Below are positions 13,456-25,131 of a stretch of 44,109 nt of DNA, piece by piece (position 1 is the first letter of the stretch; each line of letters starts with the position of its first letter). Origin of the DNA: Rhodobiaceae bacterium (lineage in GTDB: Bacteria > Pseudomonadota > Alphaproteobacteria > Rhizobiales > TMED25); NCBI GenBank assembly GCA_002699615.1, contig PAAM01000016.1:1-44109 (forward strand). The letters are read 5' to 3'. The notes under the pieces are model-generated. The model was given only the letters and a program-made list of their open reading frames with translations, searched no databases and was not told the DNA's origin. The translations under genes were made by a program, and so were the position numbers.

Positions 13456-13460
13456 AAGGA
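13456..13460 (+). promoter_or_regulatory. Ribosome binding site of the MFS gene, placing its start at ATT 13468
   Basis: AAGGA lies directly after the gshA stop codon and 7 bases before an ATT codon that is in frame with the transporter. No ATG, GTG or TTG exists in frame between the preceding stop (13423) and ATG 13627. The ATG would delete the first transmembrane helix. Confidence 0.6.
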
Positions 13461-13467
13461 AATTAAC

Positions 13468-14646
13468 ATTAAAACCTACCAACCTTCCATCTGGTCCTTA
13501 GCTGCAGTTACTGGACTCGCGCCTTTAACGTTAAACCTAATTGTTCCATCATTACCAGCGCTTGCTGATCATTTTGGAATAACTTATTCTGGCGCACAAG
13601 TTGCCGTATCGTCTTTCATAATATCAATGGCTATTGGTCAGATTTTTATTGGCCCAATATCGGATGCTTATGGGAGACGATCTATATTAATGCTTGGAAT
13701 TATTATTTTTTTGATTGGAACAACAATTTGCAGTGTTGCAACATCAAGTGAAGTGTTAATAGTTGGGCGTTTTATACAAGCATTTGGAGGCGTTGCAGGG
13801 GTTGTTCTCGGTCGAGCGATTATAAGGGATGTGTATAGTCGTGAAAAAGCTGCAAGCGCTTTGGGTTATGTGACAACTGTTATGGTTATTGCGCCTATGA
13901 TAGCTCCTCCCCTGGGCGGTATATTACAAGACTTATTTGGATGGAGAAGTATCTTTTATCTAATGATGATTGTAGGCATAATCTTGTTTTTAAATATATT
14001 TTATAATCTTCAAGAAACAAAAACTGAAGATCGGATCAAAGGGGATATAAAATCGTTACTTAACAGTTTTGTACAATTAATTAAAATACCCCAATTCATC
14101 CTTTACACAGTTACAATGTCATGCGCCAACTCTATGTTTTTCACTTTTCTAGGAGTTGCCCCACTTCTAGTAATCCAAAAATTAGATTATTCACCAACGC
14201 AATATGGGTTCACATTCATGGTCATATCATTTGCATTCATGGCAGGTAGTTTTACAACCGCAAGGCTTTCGGAGAGGATTGGCTCGCTCAGAATGATTGG
14301 TTATGCTGTATTTGGGACTATAATTGGTTCAGTTCTAATGTTGATTGTGTTCTTAAGTGGGATTGTTAATATCTATATAATTTTTGTAACAATGATGATA
14401 ATCACATATTCGAATGGTATCGTGATGCCTAATATTATTGCTAACATTGTTAGCATTAAACCACAATTAGCAGGAGCAGCGTCGGGGTTATCAGGATTTA
14501 TCCAGTATTCATTAGCTGGAGTTTCCTCGTATGTGGCAGCAGTGCTTGCTGGCATTGGGCTTATCTATATGCCACTACAACTTATCTTACTTGCCTTTCT
14601 TGGAACAATTACCTTTTATCTCGCGGAAGCTATTAAGAATAATTAG
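13468..14646 (+). CDS. MFS drug-resistance-type transporter, Bcr/CflA family; probable ATT start
   Basis: Predicted inner-membrane exporter, about 392 residues with twelve hydrophobic segments. The loop motif GPISDAYGRRS after helix 2 is MFS motif A, and GRFIQAFGGVAGVVLGRAIIRD in helix 4 is typical of the Bcr/CflA drug:H+ antiporters. The first ATG (13627) falls inside helix 2. The frame is open upstream and encodes helix 1 (SLAAVTGLAPLTLNLIVPSL), so the true start lies near 13468, where ATT follows AAGGA at 7 bases. CTG at 13429 is the only other near-canonical choice, but it lacks a Shine-Dalgarno and overlaps gshA. Substrate unknown. It ends 6 bases from the convergent gene at 14653. Confidence 0.88.
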   Translation: MKTYQPSIWSLAAVTGLAPLTLNLIVPSLPALADHFGITYSGAQVAVSSFIISMAIGQIFIGPISDAYGRRSILMLGIIIFLIGTTICSVATSSEVLIVGRFIQAFGGVAGVVLGRAIIRDVYSREKAASALGYVTTVMVIAPMIAPPLGGILQDLFGWRSIFYLMMIVGIILFLNIFYNLQETKTEDRIKGDIKSLLNSFVQLIKIPQFILYTVTMSCANSMFFTFLGVAPLLVIQKLDYSPTQYGFTFMVISFAFMAGSFTTARLSERIGSLRMIGYAVFGTIIGSVLMLIVFLSGIVNIYIIFVTMMIITYSNGIVMPNIIANIVSIKPQLAGAASGLSGFIQYSLAGVSSYVAAVLAGIGLIYMPLQLILLAFLGTITFYLAEAIKNN

Positions 14647-23281: not shown

Positions 23282-24541
23282 ATGACAATAACAGAAAGCA
23301 GAACATACAATAATATTCGAATAATATCTCAGCACATGCCAAACCTCAGTTCAGTTTCCCTTGGAATTTGGGCTGAAGTTGGTTCACGAAATGAGTCAGA
23401 GAAAGAGCAGGGAATATCTCATCTTTTGGAGCATATGGCATTCAAAGGAACAAAGACGAGGACAGCAAGGCAGATTGCAATGGAAATTGAGAATGTTGGC
23501 GGTGATATAAATGCCGCCACAAGCGTTGAAAGAACATCCTATTTTGTGAGGTTGTTAAAGAATGATATTGAAATTGGTATTTCAATTTTATCAGACATAA
23601 TACAAAATTCTATATTTGACCCAATCGAATTGGATAAAGAAAAGAACGTTATTTATCAGGAGCTTGCTTCTTACAGGGACTCACCAGATGATACAGTATT
23701 CGAAAACTTTCAGAGCGCCGCTTATCAGGATCAGGCGATTGGGAGATCCATACTTGGTAACAAGGAAACTCTGACGAATATAAAATCTGATGATTTGATA
23801 ACATATTTAAACAAATTCTATCATTCTAATAACCTAACAATAGTTGCAACTGGTTCAGTTGACCACACTCAGCTACATAATTTTTGTGAAAAATATTTCA
23901 AATTTATTCAAAGTGGTGATACGCCTCAAACTAAAAAAGCACACTACAAACCAAGTCAAATATTAGAAAATAGAGACATAGAGCAGGCTCATATCATTTA
24001 TGCATTTGAAGGTTGTTCTTACCATGATGACAATCTCTATGTAGCTCACCTCTTCTCTAATATTCTTGGAGGTGGAATGTCATCCCGGCTCTTTCAAAAT
24101 ATAAGGGAGAGTCGCGGGCTTGCTTATTCTGTGTTTTCTTTTTCATCAAATTACAAAGATACGGGTATTTTTGGAATTTATTCGGCCACTTCATCAGATA
24201 AAGTGAATGAGTATAGTGAAGCTGTGGCAAATGAAATTTTAAATTGTGAGAAAAATATAACCGATCAAGAAATTATTAAGGCAAAGAAACAATTAAAAGC
24301 GGGATTACTTATGTCATCAGAGAGTCCAATGGAAAGAATGAATCAAATTGCAAGACAAATATCAATATATGGTAGGATTATTGACATAAATGAAACTCTT
24401 GAAAGGATAGATGCCATTAAAAAAGATAACATAATTAATTTCATATCAGACACTTTTAAATCAGAAAAACTTACAATTAGTGCTCTTGGAGCAATCTCAA
24501 AACTCTCGGATCAAGATGTTATAAAAAATTTTTACCACTAA
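23282..24541 (+). CDS. M16 family zinc peptidase (mitochondrial processing peptidase-like)
   Basis: Relative of the mitochondrial processing peptidase beta subunit and PqqL-type peptidases. 419 residues. The inverted zinc motif HxxEH is intact (H47, E50, H51 in HLLEHMAFKG), with the distal Glu in the NVIYQELASYRD region. The C-terminal half has GGGMSSRLFQNIRESRGLAYS, typical of MPP. It has no signal peptide, as is usual for this thrC-linked group, and its substrate is not known. The next gene begins 17 bases after its stop. Confidence 0.92.
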   Translation: MTITESRTYNNIRIISQHMPNLSSVSLGIWAEVGSRNESEKEQGISHLLEHMAFKGTKTRTARQIAMEIENVGGDINAATSVERTSYFVRLLKNDIEIGISILSDIIQNSIFDPIELDKEKNVIYQELASYRDSPDDTVFENFQSAAYQDQAIGRSILGNKETLTNIKSDDLITYLNKFYHSNNLTIVATGSVDHTQLHNFCEKYFKFIQSGDTPQTKKAHYKPSQILENRDIEQAHIIYAFEGCSYHDDNLYVAHLFSNILGGGMSSRLFQNIRESRGLAYSVFSFSSNYKDTGIFGIYSATSSDKVNEYSEAVANEILNCEKNITDQEIIKAKKQLKAGLLMSSESPMERMNQIARQISIYGRIIDINETLERIDAIKKDNIINFISDTFKSEKLTISALGAISKLSDQDVIKNFYH

Positions 24542-24545
24542 TAAC

Positions 24546-24552
24546 GAGGTGA
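24546..24552 (+). promoter_or_regulatory. Strong Shine-Dalgarno GAGGTGA that sets the GNAT start at ATT 24559
   Basis: GAGGTGA is a seven-base match to the anti-Shine-Dalgarno and sits 6 bases before an ATT codon in the acetyltransferase frame. Its last three bases are an in-frame TGA, so translation cannot begin further upstream. No ATG, GTG, TTG or CTG occurs in frame until TTG 24619, 66 bases away. Confidence 0.75.
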
Positions 24553-24558
24553 GTTAAA

Positions 24559-25131
24559 ATTTTTAGAAATAATAAAAATAATATATATTCTCAAGATCTA
24601 ATTCTTAGATATCCCAGATTGGCTGATTATAAGAAATGGAAAAATATTCGGGAGTCAAGTAAAGGCTTTCTTACGCCTTGGGAGCCAACTTGGTATCCGG
24701 GAGAACATAGTTTAAAAAGATACCTCAAGCTTCTAACGATATACTCTCAGAAAAGAAAAAATAATACTCAATATTCTTATTTTATTTTCAATAAAAAAAA
24801 TGAATTACTGGGTGGTATAAACGTTTTTAATATAAAAAAGGGTATATCACAGAGCTGTACAATTGGGTATTGGATAGGTGAGGTGCATGCTAATCAAGGT
24901 TATATGACAAGATCCCTTTTAGCATTACTTTATCACTTATTTAATAATTTATATTTTAACCGAGTTGAAGCCGCGTGTGTGCCGAACAATATTCCATCAA
25001 AGAGCCTCCTCAAGAGACTTGGATTTGACGAAGAAGGCTACGCAAAGGATTATTTAAGAATAAATGGAAGATGGGAAGACCATATTCTCTTTTCATTAAG
25101 GAAAGTAAGTTATCATGGTCAACACAAATAG
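24559..25131 (+). CDS. GNAT N-acetyltransferase, RimJ/RimL-like; probable ATT start
   Basis: Acetyl-CoA transferase of the RimJ type, which acetylates protein N-termini. About 190 residues from the ATT at 24559; starting at TTG 24619 would cut into the first conserved strand. LILRYPRLADYKKWKNIRE and FLTPWEPTW form the RimJ-type N-terminus, IGYWIGEVHANQGYMT is the acetyl-CoA region, and VEAACVPNNIPSKSLLKRLGF (motif B) ends with GFDEEGYAKDYLRINGRWEDH. Position after the M16 peptidase is conserved in many alphaproteobacteria. It overlaps the next gene by 17 bases. The true acetylation target is unknown. Confidence 0.9.
   Translation: MFRNNKNNIYSQDLILRYPRLADYKKWKNIRESSKGFLTPWEPTWYPGEHSLKRYLKLLTIYSQKRKNNTQYSYFIFNKKNELLGGINVFNIKKGISQSCTIGYWIGEVHANQGYMTRSLLALLYHLFNNLYFNRVEAACVPNNIPSKSLLKRLGFDEEGYAKDYLRINGRWEDHILFSLRKVSYHGQHK

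Follow-up and report, generated by a model that had tools for sequence, protein, structure and literature searches.

A probable AUU start of a RimJ-like acetyltransferase gene and other conserved near-cognate starts in an OCS116-type lineage

The acetyltransferase gene and its start codon

The window, i.e., the whole stretch of 44,109 nucleotides analyzed here, corresponds to the beginning of contig C12 of the draft genome G000, which has a size of 1.45 Mb (1,453 kb), a completeness of 90%, and a contamination of 6%. The genome is AT-rich, with a G+C content of 35% in the sampled contig. Scattered N letters in G000:C12 (e.g., 44816-46909 and 119641-120231) resemble a mixed-strain consensus; the two ATT codons described below are free of N. 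One of these codons is the putative start of an acetyltransferase gene with the following features.

24546..24552, + strand: Shine-Dalgarno sequence GAGGTGA, a seven-base match
24550..24552, + strand: in-frame TGA formed by the last three bases of GAGGTGA, the upstream limit of the acetyltransferase frame
24559..24561, + strand: putative ATT start codon of the acetyltransferase, kept in 7/7 clade-A genomes
24559..25131, + strand: gene of a RimJ-like GNAT acetyltransferase of 190 amino acids
24619..24621, + strand: TTG, the earliest conventional start in frame, located within the conserved domain

The encoded protein matches Pfam PF13302 (Acetyltransf_3) with 71.1 bits, above the gathering cut-off of 25.4. 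With the RimJ equivalog (NCBIfam PRK10809), it reaches 101.5 bits, below the cut-off of 190, and the enzyme is therefore termed RimJ-like and not RimJ. The ATT is located 17 bases past the end of the upstream M16 peptidase gene, and the 3' end of the gene is overlapped by a gene with a DsbD_N domain.

An earlier note on this DNA, made from the sequence alone, had proposed initiation at ATT 24559, six bases behind the seven-base Shine-Dalgarno match with its in-frame TGA, and had named TTG 24619 as the first conventional in-frame start. All of these positions were confirmed, with bases 24553-24558 lying between GAGGTGA and the ATT. The further claim that a start at TTG would remove the conserved segment LILRYPRLADY holds for the domain, which would be truncated, but not for the entire segment: the TTG lies inside it, so a protein starting there keeps LADY and loses SQDLILRYPR. 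In the frame opening at 24553, Acetyltransf_3 is matched from residue 16 onward, seven residues before the TTG, and the alignment with the best PDB relative, 6c32, runs from LRYPRL, five residues before it.

Of 689 sampled internal ATH codons, 3 have a Shine-Dalgarno match of at least seven bases at a workable spacing, as does 1 of the 138 reliable standard starts in the relative G001, which makes the GAGGTGA site exceptional. Matches of at least five bases occur at 49/689 internal ATH codons versus 22/138 reliable standard starts of G001, and the motif alone is thus weak evidence in this lineage. The comparative evidence for ATT 24559 is stronger than that from the Shine-Dalgarno sequence.

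The relatives covered comprise 12 genomes of genus g1 and 2 of the sister genus g2 (14 family genomes). Within g1, clade A (G000, G001, G002, G005, G006, G008, and G010) shows ATT at the aligned place in all seven members. The same codon stands in six separate assemblies of close relatives, so a single-base error is unlikely. Six of the seven genomes have no conventional start in the interval from the upstream stop to the conserved protein, the exception being G001 with an ATG at codon 5, and in G002 an in-frame TAG immediately precedes the ATT. The Shine-Dalgarno match has seven bases in this genome and four to five in the six other clade-A genomes. In the remaining five members of g1, a TTG placed one or two codons before this position appears to be the start, and in g2, an ATG some codons before it seems to have this role; the N termini of the TTG and ATG forms are of similar length.

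An in-frame upstream ATG that runs into a stop two codons before the ATT is present in G008, G006, G010, and G001 and is missing in this genome. When the window positions 24530-24560 are aligned, the stop of the M16 peptidase gene in these four genomes is seen to overlap this ATG (TAATG), which opens a frame of three codons.

The codons between ATT and TTG show a pN/pS of 0.29. Split further, the values are 0.47 for codons 2 to 10 and 0.16 for codons 11 to 20, compared to 0.13 for the body of the gene. By this measure, the stretch from ATT to TTG evolves as protein, with a weaker constraint at codons 2 to 10. Taken together, the sequence comparisons make it very probable that the acetyltransferase starts at ATT 24559.

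Further near-cognate starts in the window and in the family

The second case in the window, already listed as such in the earlier note and borne out here, is a transporter gene of the major facilitator superfamily (MFS).

13456..13460, + strand: Shine-Dalgarno sequence AAGGA of the MFS gene, seven bases before the ATT
13468..13470, + strand: putative ATT start codon of the MFS gene
13468..14646, + strand: gene of a Bcr/CflA-family MFS transporter of 392 amino acids (TIGR00710)

The ATT is found at the aligned place in all 12 members of g1. A start at ATG 13627 would cost the transporter 53 residues, which show a pN/pS of 0.07. An extra ATG is present four codons upstream of the ATT in G011, G007, and G004, and an in-frame ATG five codons upstream in G001. 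In g2, an ATG occupies the aligned column or a place close to it. Aligned ATG codons in relatives, which the earlier note had held to speak against its reading, thus occur only outside the genus and for the MFS gene, the ATG of the g2 acetyltransferase being further upstream. Another MFS-like gene (G000:C6:20239-21501, - strand, and G011:C5:343108-344358) has no conventional start before its conserved N terminus and offers ATT and ATA candidates; it was left out of the counts as an unclear case.

AUU is rarely called by annotation. As the earlier note had foreseen, gene finders limited to ATG, GTG, and TTG would miss or truncate such genes: three-codon annotation would clip 53 residues from the MFS transporter and 20 from the acetyltransferase, with about 1% of the judgeable genes affected.

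The search for further ATT, ATC, or ATA starts that the note had called for was carried out on sampled stretches and turned up more cases. The gene for cobalamin adenosyltransferase (Pfam PF01923) has a match in 11 of the 14 family genomes and was not found in this draft genome. Its start column contains ATC, ATT, or ATA in every one of the 11: ATC in nine (G001, G003, G005, G007, G008, G010, G011, G012, and G013), ATT in G002, where a TTG five codons upstream is also present, and ATA in G009. In G011 and G007, a TGA is located two codons before the ATC. A total of 135 genomes of the class gave a match; in the 30 best-scoring ones, this column shows ATG in 25, GTG in 2, TTG in 2, and ATA in 1. 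This single ATA, in G150, has an in-frame ATG four codons upstream, which makes it needless as a start, and it was rejected.

A NAD-epimerase-like gene (Pfam PF01370) is found in all 14 family genomes, with the copy of G008 cut by the contig end, and its start was compared within the family. The 11 g1 genomes with a complete 5' end all show a near-cognate codon (six ATA, four ATT, and one ATC). A stop codon immediately precedes the start codon in G009 and G003, and in G005 a conventional codon lies 39 codons upstream. In both g2 genomes, the conserved core is reached from the upstream stop without any ATG, GTG, or TTG. Strong Shine-Dalgarno sequences are limited to this genome; in the others, the matches of the genes with near-cognate starts have three to six bases.

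In the g1 adenosyltransferase and epimerase-like genes, the third base varies among C, T, and A, and ATG is unseen. This pattern hints at selection for weakness, although there are few independent changes. Two of the genes occur twice with near-equal scores in G003, namely, the MFS gene (C5:53130-54290 and C6:31755-32915) and the adenosyltransferase gene (C1:772-1353 and C2:6263-6844). These twin copies look like duplicated contigs or a strain mixture; the stated contamination is 6%.

Frequency in sampled genomes and control lineages

The start scan covered 345 kb of the 1,453 kb of this genome and 229 to 400 kb each of G010, G001, and G011 (g1) and G012 (g2). A gene was flagged if its similarity to a relative began far ahead of the first ATG, GTG, or TTG, and flagged genes were then read by hand; the comparison of cases with controls is partly a matter of hand judgement on both sides. 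A second scan, based on alignment columns with G001 as the reference, flagged 51 of 217 groups, was too noisy, and was left out of the counts. The gene infC was excluded from the counts as well; it escapes the scan filter because its comparators are too alike.

The flagged fractions of evaluable genes were 7/261 in this genome, 4/185 in G010, 11/292 in G001, 13/268 in G011, and 7/202 in G012. After hand reading and with infC set aside, three genes were kept in this genome (MFS, GNAT, and epimerase-like), one in G010 (GNAT), two in G001 (epimerase-like and adenosyltransferase), three in G011 (epimerase-like, adenosyltransferase, and ispH), and three in G012 (adenosyltransferase, ispE, and an esterase gene). 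The ispH, ispE, and esterase cases are found in one genome each, with an ATG of the relatives at the column (ispH and ispE) or nearby (esterase), and could be indels or local changes. Dropped flags include broken SMC (g11_77) and LpxK (g11_677) pieces in G011, genes in which the upstream match was due to chance and an ATG followed a few codons later, and short or antisense frames. Unclear flags (own_1438, g01_1006/g11_189, g12_227, g12_294, and g12_445) were left uncounted. The SMC and LpxK homologues of G011 (G011:C5:79039-81654 and 104505-105383) are without their N-terminal parts in one frame and, as judged from sequence, may be broken genes or assembly indels.

For the sampled part of this genome, with infC aside, the rate is 3/261, or 1.1% (95% interval, 0.2 to 3.3%). 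As controls, two lineages from elsewhere in the class, close in base composition (34 to 36% and 31 to 32% G+C), were put through the same scan, resulting in 6/175 and 5/174 flags for the pair G109/G233 and 4/162 and 2/152 for the pair G090/G252. These 17 flags contain two infC genes and one doubtful case. In the other 14, either a conventional start is present within or next to the aligned part, or the frame is short and unclear and shows no near-cognate codon at the column. The doubtful case is an apparent ATA start of a G090 gene (G090:C1, ∼553 to 554 kb, - strand) that is called aroA-like after a motif. Its relative G252 has an ATG, and an out-of-frame ATG lies just upstream beside an A run in G090; the case is probably an indel and is counted here as doubtful.

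The controls thus contribute no clear and one doubtful case in 663 genes, compared to 8 to 11 cases in 1,023. For four pooled genomes (this genome, G001, G011, and G012), 11/1,023 versus 0/663 or 1/663 corresponds to a Fisher P value of 0.005 or 0.035. Counting genes seen in at least two genomes (8/1,023), the values are 0.026 or 0.098, and with G010 added (12/1,208), they are 0.011 or 0.041. Since orthologues are counted repeatedly, the pooled P values serve only as guides. This genome against one genome per control pair (3/261 versus 1/337) results in a P value of 0.32. The excess of near-cognate starts over the control lineages is suggestive, with P values of 0.005 to 0.10 by the cases counted. 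The idea of ATT initiation as a habit of the lineage is hence upheld as far as recurrence and conservation are concerned; the habit is modest (3 of 261 genes), and its excess over controls is only suggestive.

Initiation machinery, explanations, and known systems

A change in the initiator tRNA or in IF3 had been put forward as a possible cause. The initiator tRNA shows the CAT anticodon in 14/14 loci scanned, and the 77-base gene of this genome has the same sequence in G029 and G024, which belong to two other families of the order; together, these findings rule out an altered initiator tRNA. Loss of IF3 is ruled out by its presence in all 14 family genomes. For a change in IF3, the evidence is divided. 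Compared to the E. coli protein, IF3 of g1 has Met at Arg129 (9/9 sequences read), but g2 keeps the Arg (2/2) and has near-cognate starts all the same, so the Met129 exchange is not needed and is not the sole cause. Lys is found at E. coli position 116 in 11/11 and at position 112 in 10/11 family sequences read, and IF3 is otherwise mostly conserved. The infC gene of this genome itself starts with ATA (G000:C5:19889-20443, - strand), and in an uncounted reading, many infC loci of the order show ATA, ATC, or ATT where the start is expected. A changed anti-Shine-Dalgarno sequence was also considered; the 16S rRNA gene was found in 1 of 25 genomes, as a partial copy, and a typed pattern of the 16S 3' end had no match in 14 genomes. 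As 16S was also missing in 10/10 genomes of the order outside the family, rRNA is taken to be absent from or masked in the genome collection.

According to PMC10158994, IF3 accepts only Watson-Crick pairs at the first two codon bases and excludes weaker pairs at the third. As reported in PMC13009471, AUU and AUA starts in Staphylococcus aureus reach ∼10% of AUG-level expression, and ccpN attains up to 30% in rich medium. In Streptomyces, the GTC start of sigR subjects the gene to repression by IF3 (PMC5472188). From such published weak-start behavior, the starts of the present set are read as weak and probably IF3 gated.

The positions of the starts, their conservation, the mostly missing nearby conventional start, and the unchanged initiator tRNA follow from sequence comparison. 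They fit best with a reading that is considered likely, namely, that a small set of genes including the acetyltransferase has conserved weak AUU, AUC, or AUA starts that are probably gated by IF3 as in infC. In the OCS116-type lineage, this set would consist of infC and the genes for the cobalamin adenosyltransferase, the NAD-epimerase-like protein, the Bcr/CflA-type MFS transporter, and the GNAT acetyltransferase, and perhaps also of ispH, ispE, and the esterase gene of single genomes. Translation of the acetyltransferase would begin at AUU 24559, where the initiator tRNA would pair at two of three bases and the strong Shine-Dalgarno sequence would assist the ribosome. The near-cognate starts of the set would have been kept over evolution, with the weak codon limiting translation and exposing it to rejection by IF3. 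A fall in IF3 would then raise the expression of these genes. Both the gating by IF3 and the low translation are probable by analogy with what has been published for infC and sigR. A more far-reaching version appears doubtful: here, the set (∼1% of the genome; 0.2 to 3.3% by the sample) would respond to IF3 through starts that selection keeps weak, and with infC as the sensor, the adenosylation of the B12 cofactor, an efflux-type pump, and an acetyltransferase would be linked to the capacity for translation initiation.

Alternatively, start-codon proofreading could be relaxed throughout the lineage, e.g., by an altered IF3, and ATT, ATC, and ATA could have drifted in near-neutrally and regulate nothing. 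Such starts occur in several unrelated genes, the third base shifts among C, T, and A in two of them, the Met129 of g1 and the Lys residues of the family would suit an altered IF3, and the genome is AT-rich, all of which is consistent with such drift. However, g2 has these starts with Arg129 in place, about 99% of the evaluable genes are unaffected, and some of the sites should have regained ATG, whereas ATC is kept in 9 of 11 adenosyltransferases across two genera. On balance, relaxed proofreading is regarded as improbable. Improbable to a similar degree is translational coupling, in which the ATT works only because ribosomes that finish the upstream gene resume initiation at the closest weak codon. 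The GNAT, MFS, and adenosyltransferase starts are indeed located 11 to 21 bases past an upstream stop in the genomes examined, but a stop within the preceding 30 bases is also found for 69/138 ordinary starts, and in 3/3 genomes examined, the 3 kb upstream of the epimerase-like gene contain no listed gene on the same strand. It is very unlikely that the acetyltransferase start is conventional, be it TTG 24619, an accepted start codon, the upstream ATG of the four clade-A genomes used via stop readthrough or a frameshift, or a standard codon hidden by a sequencing error as the indel-like control case might suggest, because the codons ahead of the TTG are under selection at the protein level and reach into the domain, the same ATT recurs in separate assemblies, and the upstream ATG is lacking here and the TAG of G002 directly abuts the ATT.

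The preferred reading of conserved weak starts open to IF3 means that conserved starts other than ATG, GTG, and TTG occur beyond infC and that sequence comparison suffices to detect them. It likewise provides a small gene set on which control by IF3 is directly testable. Literature searches on AUU/AUC/AUA starts in bacteria, OCS116, noncanonical starts of Deinococcus deserti, and start-codon proteogenomics returned no title or abstract on the starts of this lineage among the matches listed. Near-cognate starts as such are already known, and the present genes are new examples of them, perhaps unusually many in one lineage.

Among the closest known systems is infC with its autoregulated near-cognate start, which shares with the present genes an AUH start at a conserved position and is itself represented here by ATA. 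In contrast to infC, the genes of the window are outside the translation-initiation machinery, and their regulation is proposed by analogy. E. coli pcnB, a metabolic-type gene, is reportedly limited by an AUU start; it is a single gene in one lineage and resembles the present genes in having AUU on a gene of metabolic type. The S. aureus genes cvfC1 (AUU), ccpN (AUA), and citZ (AUA) likewise show conserved AUU or AUA starts with strong Shine-Dalgarno sequences, according to PMC13009471. They are other genes, proved there by ribosome profiling and reporters as opposed to comparison alone here, and the strength of the Shine-Dalgarno sequence is not conserved in this lineage. The Streptomyces sigR gene has GTC instead of ATH, and the repression by IF3, tested in sigR (PMC5472188), would extend to the present genes by inference. 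The sigR gene shares with them a nonstandard, genus-conserved, and misannotated start and provides a worked case of IF3 gating (PMC5472188).
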